Source: Verrucomicrobiales bacterium (GTDB lineage: Bacteria > Verrucomicrobiota > Verrucomicrobiia > Verrucomicrobiales > DEV007). Taken from it: a stretch of DNA of 64,000 bases. This document shows positions 18,954 through 26,236 of the stretch, in pieces. The stretch lies in NCBI GenBank assembly GCA_002698785.1, contig PAAG01000009.1, forward strand, positions 62,001 to 126,000, written 5' to 3'. Every line of letters begins with the position of its first letter. Position 1 is the first letter of the stretch. The notes under the pieces were generated by a model, which had not been told where the DNA came from, ran no database searches, and saw only the letters and a list, made by a program, of their open reading frames with translations. A program made the translations under genes and the position numbers.

Positions 18954-19736
18954 ATGTCCCTCCTTTCAGTGGAAGATCTAGTCTTGAAGCAGCAGCGTTT
19001 GCGCCGCCGATGGTTTCGATACGATAAGGAGGACGAGATTCTGATCGATCATGTTTCTTTTGCCATCGACAATCATGGCAGCCTCGGGCTCGTTGGTGAG
19101 GAAAAGAGCGGAAAGTTTGCTCTTACGCTGGCCTTGCTGAAACTGCATGAGGTGGCATCTGGCAAAATCAATTTTGCTGAAGTCGACGTGACTGCGATTG
19201 GAGATCGCCATTTCCGGCGCATGAGGAAGTGGATTCAACCAGTGTTCGGTGATCGATATGGGCAATTGACTCCCGATTTCACAGTGAATGAGTCGTTTCT
19301 GGAAGTACTGAAGGTGTGGTTCGCATCGACGGGAAAGGATGACTGGTATCAGAAAATCGAAACCGTTATGATTGCTTGTGGATTGCCCGAGGCAGTTCGC
19401 GTGCTATACCCGGTGGAATTGGATGCGGTCGAGAGGATCCAGGTCGCTATCGCGAGGGCACTTCTCACCAGGCCGAGGCTCCTTATATGCCATGGGGTGA
19501 CACAGGGGCTCGATGTCGTTCAGCAGGCGGAAATCCTGAATTTAATCAGGCGCTTGAGAGAAGATCACGGTCTGGCGCTTTTGATTGTGACGGACGACCT
19601 TGCAGTTGCTCATCATCTGGGTGATCATATCGGCGTGCTTCACCGGGGAAAGATGCTGGAATACGGCAATGCCGAAGTCATCGTCAACCGGCCCGAGCAC
19701 GAATACACTCGGCGACTGGTGAGTTGTTCGGTGTAG
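18954..19736 (+). CDS. Degenerate ABC ATPase-like protein (OppF/DppF-derived, probable pseudo-ATPase)
   Basis: 260 residues from ATG 18954 (AAGG just upstream); the longer frame starts at 18918. It aligns along its length with oligopeptide-transporter ATPases, but the nucleotide-handling motifs are altered. Walker A reads GEEKSGKF (48-55), keeping K54 but losing the Ser/Thr. The Q-loop has G99 in place of Gln. The signature is LDAVE (156-160) for LSGGQ. Walker B and the catalytic Glu are C179-H180-G181 for A-D-E. The H-loop has D214 for His. The frame is intact, so this is not a plain pseudogene. No permease or binding protein is nearby; rodA follows at 12 bases. It may be a regulatory or structural ABC-fold protein, perhaps in wall synthesis. 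Confidence 0.8.
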   Translation: MSLLSVEDLVLKQQRLRRRWFRYDKEDEILIDHVSFAIDNHGSLGLVGEEKSGKFALTLALLKLHEVASGKINFAEVDVTAIGDRHFRRMRKWIQPVFGDRYGQLTPDFTVNESFLEVLKVWFASTGKDDWYQKIETVMIACGLPEAVRVLYPVELDAVERIQVAIARALLTRPRLLICHGVTQGLDVVQQAEILNLIRRLREDHGLALLIVTDDLAVAHHLGDHIGVLHRGKMLEYGNAEVIVNRPEHEYTRRLVSCSV

Positions 19737-19748
19737 TTTTTGATTTCC

Positions 19749-20930
19749 ATGACTCCTCTCTTCAGAAAATTCCTCGGCATGAACTGGCTGTTGTTTGCCA
19801 ACATTCTTGCTCTGCTGATTTTTGGAGTGTTCGCCGTCTACAGTGCCTGCTGGATGAGGGAAGAGCAGGATCTGGCAACGAAGTGGAGGGATCAGGTTTA
19901 CTGGATTCTCCTTGGACTGGTGTTTTTCTTCGTTGCAAGTCTGGTGGACTACAAATGGATCAAATATCTTGGTCTGCCTGCCTACCTGCTGGCGACTGGT
20001 CTGCTGATCTACACGACGTTTTTCGGTGTTGAGATCAACTCAACCCGGGCCTGGTTGAAGGTTGGTCCAGCGCTGGTTCAGCCGTCTCAGTTGGCCATCG
20101 CCGGGGGAGTGCTTCTTCTGGCTTTGGTTCTATCGACGCTACACCGTTGGCACCCAGTTTTGAGGAATCCGTTTATCCGCCTGATGGCTACTGGTCTAGT
20201 GGCCTTGATTCCTTTCGCCTTCGTGTTGATCCAGGGGGACTTTGGTTCGGCTCTCGTTTGGGTTCCGGTGATCGGCGCGATGGTATTGATCGGGAATATT
20301 CCTCTTCGGTATCTGGTCGTAATCATGTTGACCGCGACGATGTTCCTGCCTTTCGCGTTCTTTTTCGGCCTTAAGGATTACCAGAAAAAGAGGATTACGA
20401 CGCAGATAGAAATGCTCCAGGGCAAGAAGGTGAATATTCTCGCGGAGGCCTACAGCGCCTACAATAACCTTCTCGCTATTGGTAGTGGTGGCTGGAGCGG
20501 TAAGGGTTTTAAAAATCCAGAGTCTATCAACAACAAAGGGTTCATTTCTCCTGATACCGCCATCAACGACTTCATTTTTCCGGTTTTGTCGGAGGAGCAT
20601 GGTTTTCGAGGAAGCATCATGCTTCTCGGTGGCTTTATGCTCCTGCTGCTTCAGTGTATTTACGTGGCCTTTTACAGCCGCGACATGATGGGAAGACTGC
20701 TCGTTGTTGGTGTAGTAGGCCTCCTTTTTGCCCACATTTACCAGAATGTCGGGATGAACCTGTTGCTGATGCCAATTACTGGTATCCCTCTGCCTTTTAT
20801 CAGCTACGGGGGCACATTCATGGTCGTAATTCTTTTCCTCATGGGACTGGTCCAGAGTGTCTGGGTTCACCGTATTGATCCCGAGGAACGGAAGGGAAGA
20901 CCGCAGTTACAGATCGAGCATCTCGAATAG
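19749..20930 (+). CDS. rodA: RodA/FtsW-type peptidoglycan glycosyltransferase
   Basis: About 393 residues from the ATG at 19749. A SEDS-family polymerase that builds glycan strands from lipid II in the inner membrane. About ten hydrophobic segments are visible. Conserved marks are RAWLKVGPALVQPSQL, the long loop with the catalytic aspartate in AINDFIFPVLSEEHGF, and MPITGIPLPFISYGGT near the C-terminus. The RodA call over FtsW is likely from overall resemblance, not proven. It lies 12 bases after the degenerate ABC gene, suggesting co-expression; no mreB, mreC or pbp2 gene is next to it here. Confidence 0.9.
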   Translation: MTPLFRKFLGMNWLLFANILALLIFGVFAVYSACWMREEQDLATKWRDQVYWILLGLVFFFVASLVDYKWIKYLGLPAYLLATGLLIYTTFFGVEINSTRAWLKVGPALVQPSQLAIAGGVLLLALVLSTLHRWHPVLRNPFIRLMATGLVALIPFAFVLIQGDFGSALVWVPVIGAMVLIGNIPLRYLVVIMLTATMFLPFAFFFGLKDYQKKRITTQIEMLQGKKVNILAEAYSAYNNLLAIGSGGWSGKGFKNPESINNKGFISPDTAINDFIFPVLSEEHGFRGSIMLLGGFMLLLLQCIYVAFYSRDMMGRLLVVGVVGLLFAHIYQNVGMNLLLMPITGIPLPFISYGGTFMVVILFLMGLVQSVWVHRIDPEERKGRPQLQIEHLE

Positions 20931-21031: not shown

Positions 21032-22033
21032 ATGATAGAAGTTGAAAAGTTGACCAAGCGCTACGCCGGGCGCCTCGCTGTTGACGCCATTTCCTTTGAA
21101 GTGGCGAAGGGGGAGATTGTAGGGTTCCTGGGACCCAATGGGGCCGGGAAAAGCACGACCCTTCGCATGCTGACCTGTTTCCTTTCGGCTTCGTCAGGAA
21201 CCGCAAGAGTTGCCGGATTCGATATCTACGACAAATCCATCGAGGTGCGTCGCCGTGTCGGCTACATGCCGGAAAACGTTCCTTTGTATCCCGATATGCG
21301 AGTTTCGGAATACCTCACCTTTCGCGCGAAATTGAAAGGCATTGGTTTCCGTGCCGCGAAGCGCGCTGTGGCAGAGGCGATGGATGTGTGTAGCCTGACA
21401 GAGGTGGAGAGGAAAATGATTTCGACTTTGTCGAAAGGATACAAACAGCGGGTTGGTTTGGCAGATGCTCTCGTTAACAAGCCGGACCTTCTTATTCTGG
21501 ACGAGCCGACCAACGGACTGGACCCCAACCAGATTCGCCAATCGAGAGAATTGATTCGTCGGCTTGGTGACCGGCATACGATCTTGATTTCGACCCATAT
21601 TCTCTCAGAAGTCGAAATGACCTGTGGCCGTGTAGTCATTATCGACCGCGGGAAGATTCGTGCTTCGGACTCACCTCAGAACCTGATACGCAGATTGCGC
21701 AAGCCGGGTGAGGTGATTCTGGAAATGTGTGGTGATCACGCTGACGCACGAGAGCGCATCGAAAAGATTGAAGGGGTGGAGCAGGTCACTTTGATCCACG
21801 AACGTCAGGACTGGTTTACGCTTTCTATCAGTACGAATCCCCATGTGGACATACGAGAGGACCTTTTCGAGTTGGTCAGTGAAAGAAAGTGGAAAATTCG
21901 GGAGCTGGCCAGCCGAGCCGCATCCCTGGAGGATGCCTTCGTAGACCTTGTTCAGCATCCGAAAGAGGAAGAAAAACCTACAGCAGTGAACGGTGCTGAG
22001 GATGCCGAGACAGAGGAGGGGGAAAACGAGTAA
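21032..22033 (+). CDS. ABC transporter ATP-binding protein (GldA-like)
   Basis: 333 residues. An intact ABC ATPase: Walker A GPNGAGKS (near 34-41), signature LSKGYKQR, Walker B LLILDEPTNGLDP, H-loop STHILSEVE. After residue 225 there is a C-terminal extension of about 100 residues ending in an acidic tail. Similar ATPases drive ABC-2 export systems including the Gld gliding/secretion-like complexes. It heads a cluster on the plus strand: permease at 4 bases, GldG-like and DUF4340 proteins, then a cytochrome. The ATPase is unlike the degenerate one two genes upstream. Confidence 0.93.
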   Translation: MIEVEKLTKRYAGRLAVDAISFEVAKGEIVGFLGPNGAGKSTTLRMLTCFLSASSGTARVAGFDIYDKSIEVRRRVGYMPENVPLYPDMRVSEYLTFRAKLKGIGFRAAKRAVAEAMDVCSLTEVERKMISTLSKGYKQRVGLADALVNKPDLLILDEPTNGLDPNQIRQSRELIRRLGDRHTILISTHILSEVEMTCGRVVIIDRGKIRASDSPQNLIRRLRKPGEVILEMCGDHADARERIEKIEGVEQVTLIHERQDWFTLSISTNPHVDIREDLFELVSERKWKIRELASRAASLEDAFVDLVQHPKEEEKPTAVNGAEDAETEEGENE

Positions 22034-22036
22034 GGT

Positions 22037-22792
22037 ATGCGCACGTTTCTGATACTTTTCCTGAAAGAACTCCGGTCATTTTTCCTTTCGCCGTTGGCGT
22101 GGGTGGTGATGGCACTGTTTACCTTTCTGAACGGGTGGCTCTTCGCAAGCATGGTGAATGCGATGCGTCTACGGGTGAGTCCAAGAAGCCTCGTCTTTAA
22201 CATGTTCGAATCCGGATGGTTCTGGATGGGCTTCTTTATCTTATTCCCTCTAATCACGATGCGGCTTTTCGCAGAGGAGCGGAAAATGGGGACCATTGAG
22301 GGTTTGCTCACCGCACCCGTGCGAACCTCAGAAGTGGTGTTGGCCAAGTACCTGGCCACGGTGATCGTCTACGTGATCATCGTTCTGCCTGTTTTCCTTT
22401 TCTTTCCTCTGTTTCAGGTAGTGACAGGGGAGAGTGCGGCGTTTCACTCCGGCGCCTTGTGGGGAAGCGCTTTGGGGCTATTACTCGTTGGGATATTCAA
22501 TGTTGCGATTGGGACGTTGGCGTCTTCGCTTACGGCAAATCAGTTGATCGCCGCGATGCTGACGTTTGTGCTCGTGATGCTCCACTATTTCATGGGTTTC
22601 CTGCACAATTTTGGCGTGGTGCCGGGGTCAAACTGGACAGACAGCCTGACGTATTTTTCGACCACCGAGCACATGCAGGCTCTCTCCGAGGGGCTGATCG
22701 ATAGCCGACCGATTTTTTATTACTTGAGTTTCAGCGTCATCCTCCTGTCATTGACACATCATGTGTTGGAATCAAGGAAGTGGAGGGCGTAG
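22037..22792 (+). CDS. ABC-2 type permease (GldF-like)
   Basis: 251 residues with six hydrophobic spans, the usual form of an ABC-2 permease. The first span follows MRTFLILFLKELRSFFLSP; an amphipathic charged loop (EERKMGTIEGLLTAPVRTSEVVLAKYLA) after the second span matches the coupling region of the family. It starts 4 bases after the ATPase stop. The pair should form an inner-membrane exporter; the substrate is unknown. Confidence 0.92.
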   Translation: MRTFLILFLKELRSFFLSPLAWVVMALFTFLNGWLFASMVNAMRLRVSPRSLVFNMFESGWFWMGFFILFPLITMRLFAEERKMGTIEGLLTAPVRTSEVVLAKYLATVIVYVIIVLPVFLFFPLFQVVTGESAAFHSGALWGSALGLLLVGIFNVAIGTLASSLTANQLIAAMLTFVLVMLHYFMGFLHNFGVVPGSNWTDSLTYFSTTEHMQALSEGLIDSRPIFYYLSFSVILLSLTHHVLESRKWRA

Positions 22793-22799
22793 TCGACGG

Positions 22800-24317
22800 A
22801 TGGATAAGGAGAAAAAACAGAAACCAGAAAAGAAGGATGCTTCGGCGTCTCGCCTTACTGAGACGGGACGGAAGATCGAGCGGTACCGTACTGCCGGTCT
22901 TGTGTCGATCCAGGTTATCCTCATGCTGGTTGTGTTTTTCCAGGTGAACTATCTCAGCTGTCGCAGGCATACCACGTGGGATTTGACCCAGAACCGCCGG
23001 TTTACGCTCTCCGACACCTCGAAGAATTTCCTGGGAAGTCTGCGGGGAGAGGTAAACATCGTAATGGCGTTTCTCGGCACGTCGGATCTCTATGCCGATG
23101 TGAAGGGGCTGATTTCGGAGTACGATCGAATTGGTCGAGACTCAGTGTCCGCAGAGTTTCTCGATCTAAGTCGAAGCCGCTCCCGCCTTTCCGAACTGCA
23201 GGACAAGCACAGGCTTCAATTCAACCGAAACCAGATCGTAATTCTCGGTGCGAATGATCGGATCAAGACGATCCCGGCAGAAGAGCTGGTAACGCGGGAC
23301 GCCAATACTGGCAGGATCCTCGAATTTCGTGGGGAAGATGTTTTGACAGCTGCTTTGTTAGAAGTTACAGAGCAGCAGCAGCGTAAAATCTACCTGATTT
23401 CGGGAGACCGTCGCGCAGATGAGCTGGTTCCGATCGCAGCGCAGTTGCAGCCTCTTACCAATGCCCAGAACGCGAGGCTTGAGAGTTTGAATCTCGAAGG
23501 ACGCACCGATATTCCTGAAGATGCTGACGTGTTGTTTTTTGCCGGTAATTCATCCGATATTACTGAGCGCGAACTGGAGTTGCTGAAGTCCTACTTTGAT
23601 GAGAGAAAAGGGGGCTTGATGGTTCTGCTCGACCCACGAGCAAGCACGCCAAACTTAAATTCACTGCTTCGAGAGCATGGAGTCGCCCCGAATCCGGATC
23701 GTGTCCTGAGTGTGGTGAATATTCCGGGTGTCGCAGAGAAGCGAACTTATGAAGTGCCGGTTGCCCTGATGCCCGGCACTGGACCCACTCGAGACCTGCC
23801 TGCGATGACGATGAGGCTCGTAGAACAGACCCAATCCATTGCGGTATTGTATCAGGACGATCTACTGATTTCCGAAAACGTTCATCCGCAACCGTTGATG
23901 ATTGCCGGGAATGGATTCTGGGGCGAAACCGACTTCCAGTCCGACGAAGTTTCTTACAATCCAGATGTCGATACTGGACAGCCGGAGCCCGTCTTTGTCG
24001 CCGCGTCCGTTGAAAAAGGATTGCCGGGAGATCCTGAATTCCGCGAAGGTTCTTCTCGGCTGGTCGTTGTGGGAAATCCTGCGGTGATTTCTCCAGATGG
24101 AAACACTTCCAAAGTGGGGGCGGATTTTATCATGGCTGCCTTGAACTGGACGATGAACCGGGAGGAGTTGATTGGTATCTCTCCGAGAAATCCTACTGCA
24201 TTTACTCTGAATATATCGGCGGCGGATTTTGGTATGCTTCAGACCTTGATGATTTTTGTGTTGCCGCTGGTGGCTTTGATAGTTGGGGCTTTTGTGTGGA
24301 TCAGGCGTAGAGCGTAG
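22800..24317 (+). CDS. GldG-like auxiliary component of an ABC system
   Basis: About 505 residues from the ATG at 22800. The longer frame overlaps the permease gene. Charged N-terminus (about 1-35), a first membrane span at about 38-58, then a large periplasmic domain of the GldG / ABC-type auxiliary family: DLTQNRRFTLSDTSKNFL, later ADVLFFAGNSSDITERELELL and GGLMVLLDPRAS. A second span lies near the C-terminus (TLMIFVLPLVALIVGAFVW). In Bacteroidetes GldG partners GldA and GldF; here gliding is not implied, since this trio is widespread outside gliding bacteria. Confidence 0.88.
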   Translation: MDKEKKQKPEKKDASASRLTETGRKIERYRTAGLVSIQVILMLVVFFQVNYLSCRRHTTWDLTQNRRFTLSDTSKNFLGSLRGEVNIVMAFLGTSDLYADVKGLISEYDRIGRDSVSAEFLDLSRSRSRLSELQDKHRLQFNRNQIVILGANDRIKTIPAEELVTRDANTGRILEFRGEDVLTAALLEVTEQQQRKIYLISGDRRADELVPIAAQLQPLTNAQNARLESLNLEGRTDIPEDADVLFFAGNSSDITERELELLKSYFDERKGGLMVLLDPRASTPNLNSLLREHGVAPNPDRVLSVVNIPGVAEKRTYEVPVALMPGTGPTRDLPAMTMRLVEQTQSIAVLYQDDLLISENVHPQPLMIAGNGFWGETDFQSDEVSYNPDVDTGQPEPVFVAASVEKGLPGDPEFREGSSRLVVVGNPAVISPDGNTSKVGADFIMAALNWTMNREELIGISPRNPTAFTLNISAADFGMLQTLMIFVLPLVALIVGAFVWIRRRA

Positions 24318-24331
24318 AAGGTGAGTTAGAA

Positions 24332-26236
24332 ATGAGAATCATTACGACAGCAATTCTGGGAGTGACTGCCATTATCCTGGCAGTGGTGACCCATTTTGTT
24401 GACCGGAAGATTGAGACGGCAGAGGACAATGCCGATCTGGCGAGAGTCGCAATACGATTTGAACCTGAGCAAGTAGATCGCATCGTCATCGAGCAAGGCA
24501 CGAAGAAGGTCGTTATCGAAGCGCGCAATAGGTTCTGGTATTTCTCTGAGCCTGAAGAGGATCGGGTGGATCCGGCAGCTGTTAGTGCAGTGCTTGATGT
24601 GCTGAATCATCTCAGCATTCTCGATACCATAGAGAAAGGGGAAGGGGAGGAGATGTCACCGCAGTCCTTGGGATTAAAGGGGGATGATGCGATCAAAGTC
24701 ACGGTGAGCGGGCCAAGCGAGAAGGGGAGCAAAGATCGATTTAAAGAAGGGGTTATAGTTGGCGTTTCGGCTCCACGAGAGGAAACCGTCTACGCTCGGC
24801 GGGTCGGGGAAGATGATTCGATTCTGGTGGTCGACGGCAATCCTCGACCATGGATTTCGGAGCCGCTGCAGACGTTACGGGATCGGCGGATCCTGGGGGC
24901 TCCGGTAGAGGCGATTGTCCAGATGGTTATTGGTCAGTCAACGGGGCAGATCGCTTTGCAGAGGAGAATCACACCTCCGGCTCAGGATTGGGCGATTGTA
25001 AAACCAATTCAGGTTTGGGCTGACAAAGAGAAGCTGGATCAGATGTTGGCTACTTTGGCATCTTTTGAAATTCAGGAAGTCGCCTCGACTGATGGCGGTG
25101 CTATCGAAATCCCGAATCCTATCCCGGAGAATGCGGCCGTGTTTCAATTTCAAGTGTACGGAATTGAGCAGCCACTTACGCTTTACCTGAAAGAGGTGGA
25201 TCCCGGAGACGGCGTTGCTCCTCCTCAACTTGAGGCTGTCGTGTCAGGTCGTCCGGGTGTGTATCGATTCTATTCTCCATTCCTGTCGCAGTTGCCTGGA
25301 AAGGCGAATGAGCTTCGTGACCGTACCCTCGCCCGTATACCGATCCAGTTTCTCGATTCAGTCGTGATAGAAAGTCTCATCGATCCCCCTGTGGTGTTGA
25401 TGTCAGAGCCGACCCAAGAAGGACGGCGCTGGCAGGTCAGTCTGAACAACGAGCTTGTTACTGCGGATACTCGAGCGGTCGCTGATTTGGTAAGCGGTGT
25501 AAACGAGACGCCAATTCTCGATTTCGTTTCGGACTCCGGAGATAACCTTGCTGAATACGGACTGAATCCACCCGCGCGGAGCGTTACTTTCCGGATGAAG
25601 TATCCTGGGCAACCTGATGCACAGGGCAACCCTGGGCAAGTTCAGCAACAGGATCGAGTGCTGAACCTGGGATGGAGAGAGGGAGAGGAACAACGGCTTT
25701 TCGCGAACTTTGCTGGTGACCCTTACATCTACGAACTTGATCCGTCTTTTGTTGGATTGATTCCGACACATCCAATCAAATGGAGATCGCTCGAGGTGCT
25801 GAAGTTCAATCCCATGCACTTGATTTCGATCACAAGAGAGACGGATGACGGGGAGAAGCTCAAGCTTGAGTATAATTACAAACTCGATGACTGGGAGGCC
25901 GAGCGAAATGGTATTCCTATCACGGAAAGTATCGATGAAGCATCGGTTCGGCGGTTGCGAGACCGGCTCGGCGGGCTTACCGCAAGCGGATGGGCCCTTT
26001 CATTGCCACAGGCATACGAGGCCTTGCAGGAACCCGCTGCCGTTTTCACGATCGTAACAGATGAATTCGATCCGGCGATCGGGGACCGAAAAAGGAAGAC
26101 AACTCGAGTGAGATTTGCCAAGGCGATCGAGGAAGTGTACTTCGGCCAGCTCGAAGGTTCTCCCGATGTTTTCACAATGGATTACAGTGACTTCAGGAAT
26201 CTGAAGAGACCGGTTACGACAAGGCGAGCGAACTGA
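24332..26236 (+). CDS. DUF4340 domain protein of the GldG-like cluster
   Basis: 634 residues. An N-terminal membrane anchor (about 5-22) is followed by a long extracytoplasmic region carrying DUF4340-type repeats, the first at about 60-240 (ILVVDGNPRPWISEPLQTLRDRRIL is typical). The domain is found next to GldG-like genes in many PVC bacteria and elsewhere, but has no defined function. A 14-base gap from the GldG-like gene supports one operon. It probably sits in the periplasm as part of the same membrane complex. Confidence 0.85.
   Translation: MRIITTAILGVTAIILAVVTHFVDRKIETAEDNADLARVAIRFEPEQVDRIVIEQGTKKVVIEARNRFWYFSEPEEDRVDPAAVSAVLDVLNHLSILDTIEKGEGEEMSPQSLGLKGDDAIKVTVSGPSEKGSKDRFKEGVIVGVSAPREETVYARRVGEDDSILVVDGNPRPWISEPLQTLRDRRILGAPVEAIVQMVIGQSTGQIALQRRITPPAQDWAIVKPIQVWADKEKLDQMLATLASFEIQEVASTDGGAIEIPNPIPENAAVFQFQVYGIEQPLTLYLKEVDPGDGVAPPQLEAVVSGRPGVYRFYSPFLSQLPGKANELRDRTLARIPIQFLDSVVIESLIDPPVVLMSEPTQEGRRWQVSLNNELVTADTRAVADLVSGVNETPILDFVSDSGDNLAEYGLNPPARSVTFRMKYPGQPDAQGNPGQVQQQDRVLNLGWREGEEQRLFANFAGDPYIYELDPSFVGLIPTHPIKWRSLEVLKFNPMHLISITRETDDGEKLKLEYNYKLDDWEAERNGIPITESIDEASVRRLRDRLGGLTASGWALSLPQAYEALQEPAAVFTIVTDEFDPAIGDRKRKTTRVRFAKAIEEVYFGQLEGSPDVFTMDYSDFRNLKRPVTTRRAN

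Follow-up and report, generated by a model that had tools for sequence, protein, structure and literature searches.

Within the 64,000-nucleotide stretch of Verrucomicrobiales DNA analysed here (the window), positions 18954–19736 of the plus strand hold an uninterrupted 260-codon frame, with an ATG start and a TAG stop, that ends 12 bases before the ATG of rodA (19749) on the same strand. The protein matches Pfam ABC_tran (E 2.9e-9) and, of the oligo_HPY extension, the beginning only. In the NCBIfam ranking the second half of YejF came first and OppF next, and the nearest solved chains were Dpp and Opp ATPases, with YejF, OppF and DppF the closest kinds. The AlphaFold2 model is a complete and confident nucleotide-binding domain (NBD; mean pLDDT 94.4, pTM 0.90) whose best match in the PDB is E. 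coli OppF (8z21_D, query TM 0.96); PhnK was also among the nearest folds in the structure comparison. The initial annotation of this locus had described a full-length OppF/DppF-like protein with no frameshift lying 12 bases before rodA, and both points held. The features are as follows.

18954..19736, plus strand: pseudo-ATPase, an OppF/YejF-type ABC nucleotide-binding domain of 260 aa with its catalytic motifs lost
19095..19121, plus strand: former Walker A, GEEKSGKFA instead of GESGSGK[ST]T (residues 48–56)
19239..19271, plus strand: former Q-loop, PVFGDRYGQLT instead of MVFQDPFGSLN (Gln99 to Gly)
19416..19442, plus strand: former ABC signature, ELDAVERIQ instead of EFSGGQRQR
19482..19496, plus strand: former Walker B and catalytic Glu, LICHG instead of LICDE
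19506..19520, plus strand: D-loop GLDVV, with Asp187 invariant across orthologs
19590..19601, plus strand: former H-loop, TDDL instead of AHDL (His214 to Asp, 22/22 orthologs)
19749..20930, plus strand: rodA, encoding the SEDS glycosyltransferase, the supposed operon partner (Pfam FTSW_RODA_SPOVE, E 3.6e-57)

Measured against a working OppF or YejF ATPase, the window protein has no intact Walker A, Q-loop, signature, Walker B Glu or H-loop. In its Walker A, G48, S52, G53 and K54 remain, but the middle Gly and the two Ser/Thr residues are gone; the LSGGQ core of the signature reads LDAVE; the Walker B Asp–Glu pair has become His180–Gly181; and Asp187 of the D-loop is the sole catalytic landmark left unchanged. 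The initial annotation had all nucleotide motifs changed, which is right for the Q-loop, signature, Walker B and H-loop, all lost, and needs one qualification, as Walker A is damaged and not erased.

Conservation and selection within the genus

A search of 57 related genomes recovered 22 full-length orthologs, the window's included, and one partial copy. All fall in a single genus, that of the window, and are 40–64% identical. In every full-length ortholog the Q-loop Gln and the H-loop His are gone, the signature is no longer intact and position 55 in Walker A does not carry Ser/Thr. The replacements recur across the genus: H214D and Gln160 to Glu are found in 22/22 and Ser157 to Asp in 21/22, and GQL in the Q-loop region is fixed in nearly the whole genus. 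At 22 positions the orthologs are fixed for a residue other than the one fixed in intact relatives (among these changes are S104Q, H122W, S157D, G159V, Q160E and H214D). In their new state, the stretch from the Q-loop to the helical domain, the ELDAVERQ segment that was the signature and the TDDLAV segment that was the H-loop hardly vary. Walker A drifts among the orthologs, with its Lys retained in 11 of the 22.

Codon models gave dN/dS values of 0.037, 0.076 and 0.095 in three subclades, and fixing dN/dS at 1 cost 595, 236 and 285 log-likelihood units, respectively. Pairwise values for the closest ortholog pairs were about 0.03–0.15, and rodA gave 0.010–0.026 in the same genomes. Two expectations attached to the initial annotation, conservation of the degenerate residues and of the rodA neighbour in relatives and a dN/dS below 1, were thus borne out by the same residues at the same locus in the genus and by subclade values of 0.04–0.10. 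Strain-specific decay or an assembly error is ruled out by the same degenerate locus in genus relatives together with the low dN/dS. With its catalytic residues lost clade-wide and its frame under purifying selection, the protein is, as judged from sequence, a pseudoenzyme, a pseudo-ATPase selected as a protein. Selection for a non-ATPase role, as first suggested, is well supported by the degenerate orthologs at the same locus and the low dN/dS.

Intact relatives and the graded loss of ATPase motifs

Outside the window's family, the same gene encodes an intact OppF subunit, a history that was not visible to the initial annotation. An intact OppF-like ATPase of ~262 aa precedes rodA in 41 of the 43 rodA-bearing genomes of family f4 and in 5 of 9 in family f3, at a median gap of 44 bases; no permease was recognised in the flanks inspected, which were read by eye. 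One f4 genus carries a second, more distant rodA-like gene directly after rodA (L061:11885-13087 in G051, also G080 and G150). In an OppD-rooted tree, the degenerate clade (100/100) lies inside the rodA-linked proteins and groups with six of them (96/83); its long stem calls for caution, and the tree gave the same answer when intermediate genera that break the stem were added. By whole-length homology, tree position and NBD fold, the window protein is an OppF/YejF-type ABC ATPase by descent.

Beyond the order, sampling across the class turned up the same protein in another 68 genomes, at 56–68% identity to the f4 protein. At the 20 of these loci that were examined, the gene either comes last after an oppD-like gene or stands as an orphan before rodA (L209, L210, L211, L214, L215, L218, L220, L228), with L221 and L225 assignable to neither arrangement; a permease gene was also recognisable in several oppD–oppF loci (for example, L217, L222, L223 and L227). 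The OppD of complete operons forms a distinct ortholog clade (SH-aLRT 100), and such an OppD is encoded elsewhere, at 57–68% identity, in 20/20 tested genomes with an orphan intact oppF. No oppF was present among the frames read at these 20 OppD loci, some of whose contigs end soon after oppD, and where checked (L232, L241) oppD is preceded by genes for a family-5 solute-binding protein and permeases. The simplest reading of these gene orders would be a split transporter, with oppABCD at one locus and oppF with rodA at another. This split arrangement (L229–L248, L209–L228) was seen in many Verrucomicrobiota.

The cognate OppD is missing in 11/11 tested genomes with a degenerate rodA-linked protein, their best matches being 43–53% identical; those of G000 lie outside the OppD clade and group with generic OppD and a fused YejF-like protein. 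G034, from the same family as the window, keeps both an intact orphan OppF and OppD. From the missing OppD we infer that OppABC was lost in the window's family as well, its permease diverging too fast for a search. The association of OppD loss with motif loss may stem from a single evolutionary event.

The rodA-linked proteins of seven genera in the window's family form one clade (100/98) with graded motif states.

g22: Walker A Lys–Thr, Q-loop and His kept; signature and Glu lost
g16: Walker A kept; Q-loop, signature and His lost
g21 and g15: His kept; Q-loop Gln, Walker A Thr and Walker B Asp lost
g17: Lys also lost; His lost in 2/4
g20 and the window's genus: Asp replaces the H-loop His

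Because the ancestor and several intermediates survive in related genomes, as do the operon split and the loss of the partner, the order of motif loss is readable. It can be read as a putative series in which the catalytic Glu and the signature went first, then the Walker A Ser/Thr, the Q-loop Gln and the Walker B Asp, with the H-loop His last; the distribution of states indicates that this His was lost more than once. In g16 (L198, L199), the rodA-linked ABC protein has an intact Walker A, GETGCGKT[TS]; it possibly represents an ATP-binding, non-hydrolysing stage.

Linkage to rodA and candidate roles

No permease gene adjoins the pseudo-ATPase in the window, as the initial annotation had it. 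After rodA, positions 21032–26236 hold a cluster of ABC ATPase, permease, GldG-like and DUF4340-like genes, which keeps this position in most genomes of the genus and was not seen there in other families. Partnership with this ABC–permease–GldG set was considered and set aside: the set has its own ATPase (21032–22033) and was not seen behind rodA in the other oppF–rodA families.

All 22 full-length orthologs precede rodA and share its strand, with gaps of −1 to 29 bases (median 13), and the link to rodA stays while the other flanking genes vary. Among genomes of the genus with rodA, the gene is present in 23 of 26, with rodA cut by a contig end in one more; among those without a full rodA, some of them incomplete, it is present in 0 of 8. 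MreB is also missing in G011, G014 and G022, genomes that are 91–92% complete, which suggests a subclade that lost the rod system. In G014 (L073:6310-6603), only about the last 98 codons of rodA remain, and the same locus has no pseudo-ATPase gene. Co-loss with rodA may reflect one deletion of neighbours, as seen in G014, and is weak evidence of shared function because the two genes are adjacent. RodA does not always depend on the pseudo-ATPase, since rodA occurs without this gene upstream in G025, in G030 and, within the window's family, in the genera g3, g19, g23, g24 and g25.

Such lineages would fit a conserved role unrelated to RodA, the neighbourhood having been inherited from the old oppF–rodA arrangement; that order is older than the ATPase loss, so the linkage need not reflect the present role. 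We nevertheless consider this reading unlikely, as gaps below 30 bases have been kept in all orthologs despite varying flanks, and the gene follows the presence of rodA in the counts just given.

It is quite unlikely that the protein serves an ABC importer as a dead structural NBD whose partner is some other OppD- or YejF-type ATPase in the cell. In favour of this reading, the protein retains the D-loop Asp, the overall fold and several of the core residues of an NBD, the genome encodes other intact OppD/OppF and fused YejF-like ATPases, and there are heterodimeric ABC exporters in which one site is degenerate. Known heterodimeric ABC proteins of this kind, however, keep one working composite site (PMC12038006), whereas the window protein has lost its Walker half as well as its signature half. 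A heterodimer containing it would thus be crippled at both sites, namely the protein's own Walker/H-loop site and the one to which it would lend its signature. The cognate OppD is also missing, and the genome's OppD–OppF pair and its fused YejF-like protein each own both ATPase halves.

Retention of the frame merely as a leader for rodA expression, through transcription or translational coupling, would suit the very short gap and the one-base overlap in one case, but is highly improbable: a leader would not conserve amino acids, the dN/dS values and the 22 fixed new residues point to selection on the protein, and rodA does without such a leader in other lineages. A pseudogene decaying in the window's lineage, as loss of all nucleotide motifs might suggest, can practically be dismissed, being contradicted by open frames intact in 22 genomes and by subclade dN/dS values that all lie well below 1.

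We therefore favour the reading in which an OppF of a peptide importer became a selected pseudo-ATPase with an ATP-free, most likely Rod-linked role, and regard it, taken whole, as fairly probable. Its OppF lineage and pseudo-ATPase status are very likely; the Rod-linked role falls just under an even chance. A stricter version, in which the ATPase subunit of a (muro)peptide importer gave rise to a dedicated ATP-independent regulator or scaffold of the RodA elongation machine, with intermediates still living at several stages of ATPase loss, is tentative and lies somewhat below even. The protein very probably has a new ATP-free job, perhaps in cell-wall growth. A role in elongation, raised in the initial annotation, appears plausible from the operon-like position before rodA and the co-loss with rodA and MreB.

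In the course of events that we propose, the ancestor would have served as the ATPase subunit OppF in an importer of peptides, possibly of muropeptides, and oppF would have moved apart from the opp operon to a place directly before rodA, leaving oppD and the rest elsewhere. In the window's family, OppD would have been lost and the motifs shed stepwise, with the full-length protein retained beside rodA for an ATP-independent second role that was either already present or gained. That the gene outlived the transporter in several genera suggests that this second role predates transporter loss, and peptide import and wall synthesis may have been coupled through the ancestor while it was still intact. 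The pseudo-ATPase would act by binding. Most likely it would be a scaffold or a regulator in the cytoplasm, serving RodA or the Rod complex, and would make contact through the surface on which its new residues are fixed, made up of the helical domain and the former Q-loop, signature and H-loop. The NBD of an ABC importer binds its membrane partner through the Q-loop region, so it is natural to guess that the pseudo-ATPase may dock on a membrane protein, RodA for example. The link to rodA persists, and OppF is intact in the majority of relatives carrying both genes; this suggests a tie between peptide import (perhaps wall-peptide recycling) and elongation in Verrucomicrobiota.

Comparison with known ABC systems

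OppF of E. coli OppBCDF (8z21_D) and the C-terminal half of YejF (NCBIfam NF011713) have the same fold as the window protein (TM 0.96), about 28–33% identity over the whole length and a similar C-terminal P-x-H-x-Y-T stretch. Unlike them, the window protein has no intact catalytic motif, lacks most of the oligo_HPY C-terminal extension and has neither an adjoining permease nor a cognate OppD, standing instead before rodA.

The exporters MsRv1273c/72c (PMC12038006) and PatAB (PMC9541285) likewise contain an ABC subunit that has lost catalytic residues and is kept by selection. Both retain nucleotide binding, one working composite site and fused transmembrane domains, whereas the window protein is a stand-alone NBD with every motif lost. 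A literature search that covered few subscription journals returned no paper on an oppF–rodA link and no stand-alone pseudo-NBD, the papers on degenerate sites dealing with heterodimeric or two-domain ABC proteins. To our knowledge, stand-alone ABC NBDs that have lost every motif and yet are strongly selected have rarely been described.

PhnK and FtsE are ATPases, which the window protein is predicted not to be. Like PhnK on the C–P lyase (PDB 7z19) and FtsE of FtsEX, the window protein is proposed to be an ABC domain with a partner other than a classical importer. Finally, YejBEF–YepA of Agrobacterium, an active transporter with a Yej-type ATPase, imports muropeptides and is tied to peptidoglycan recycling (PMC9790009); because a Yej-type importer carries muropeptides there, a tie to wall metabolism is plausible, and this system offers a possible model for why oppF arrived next to rodA.
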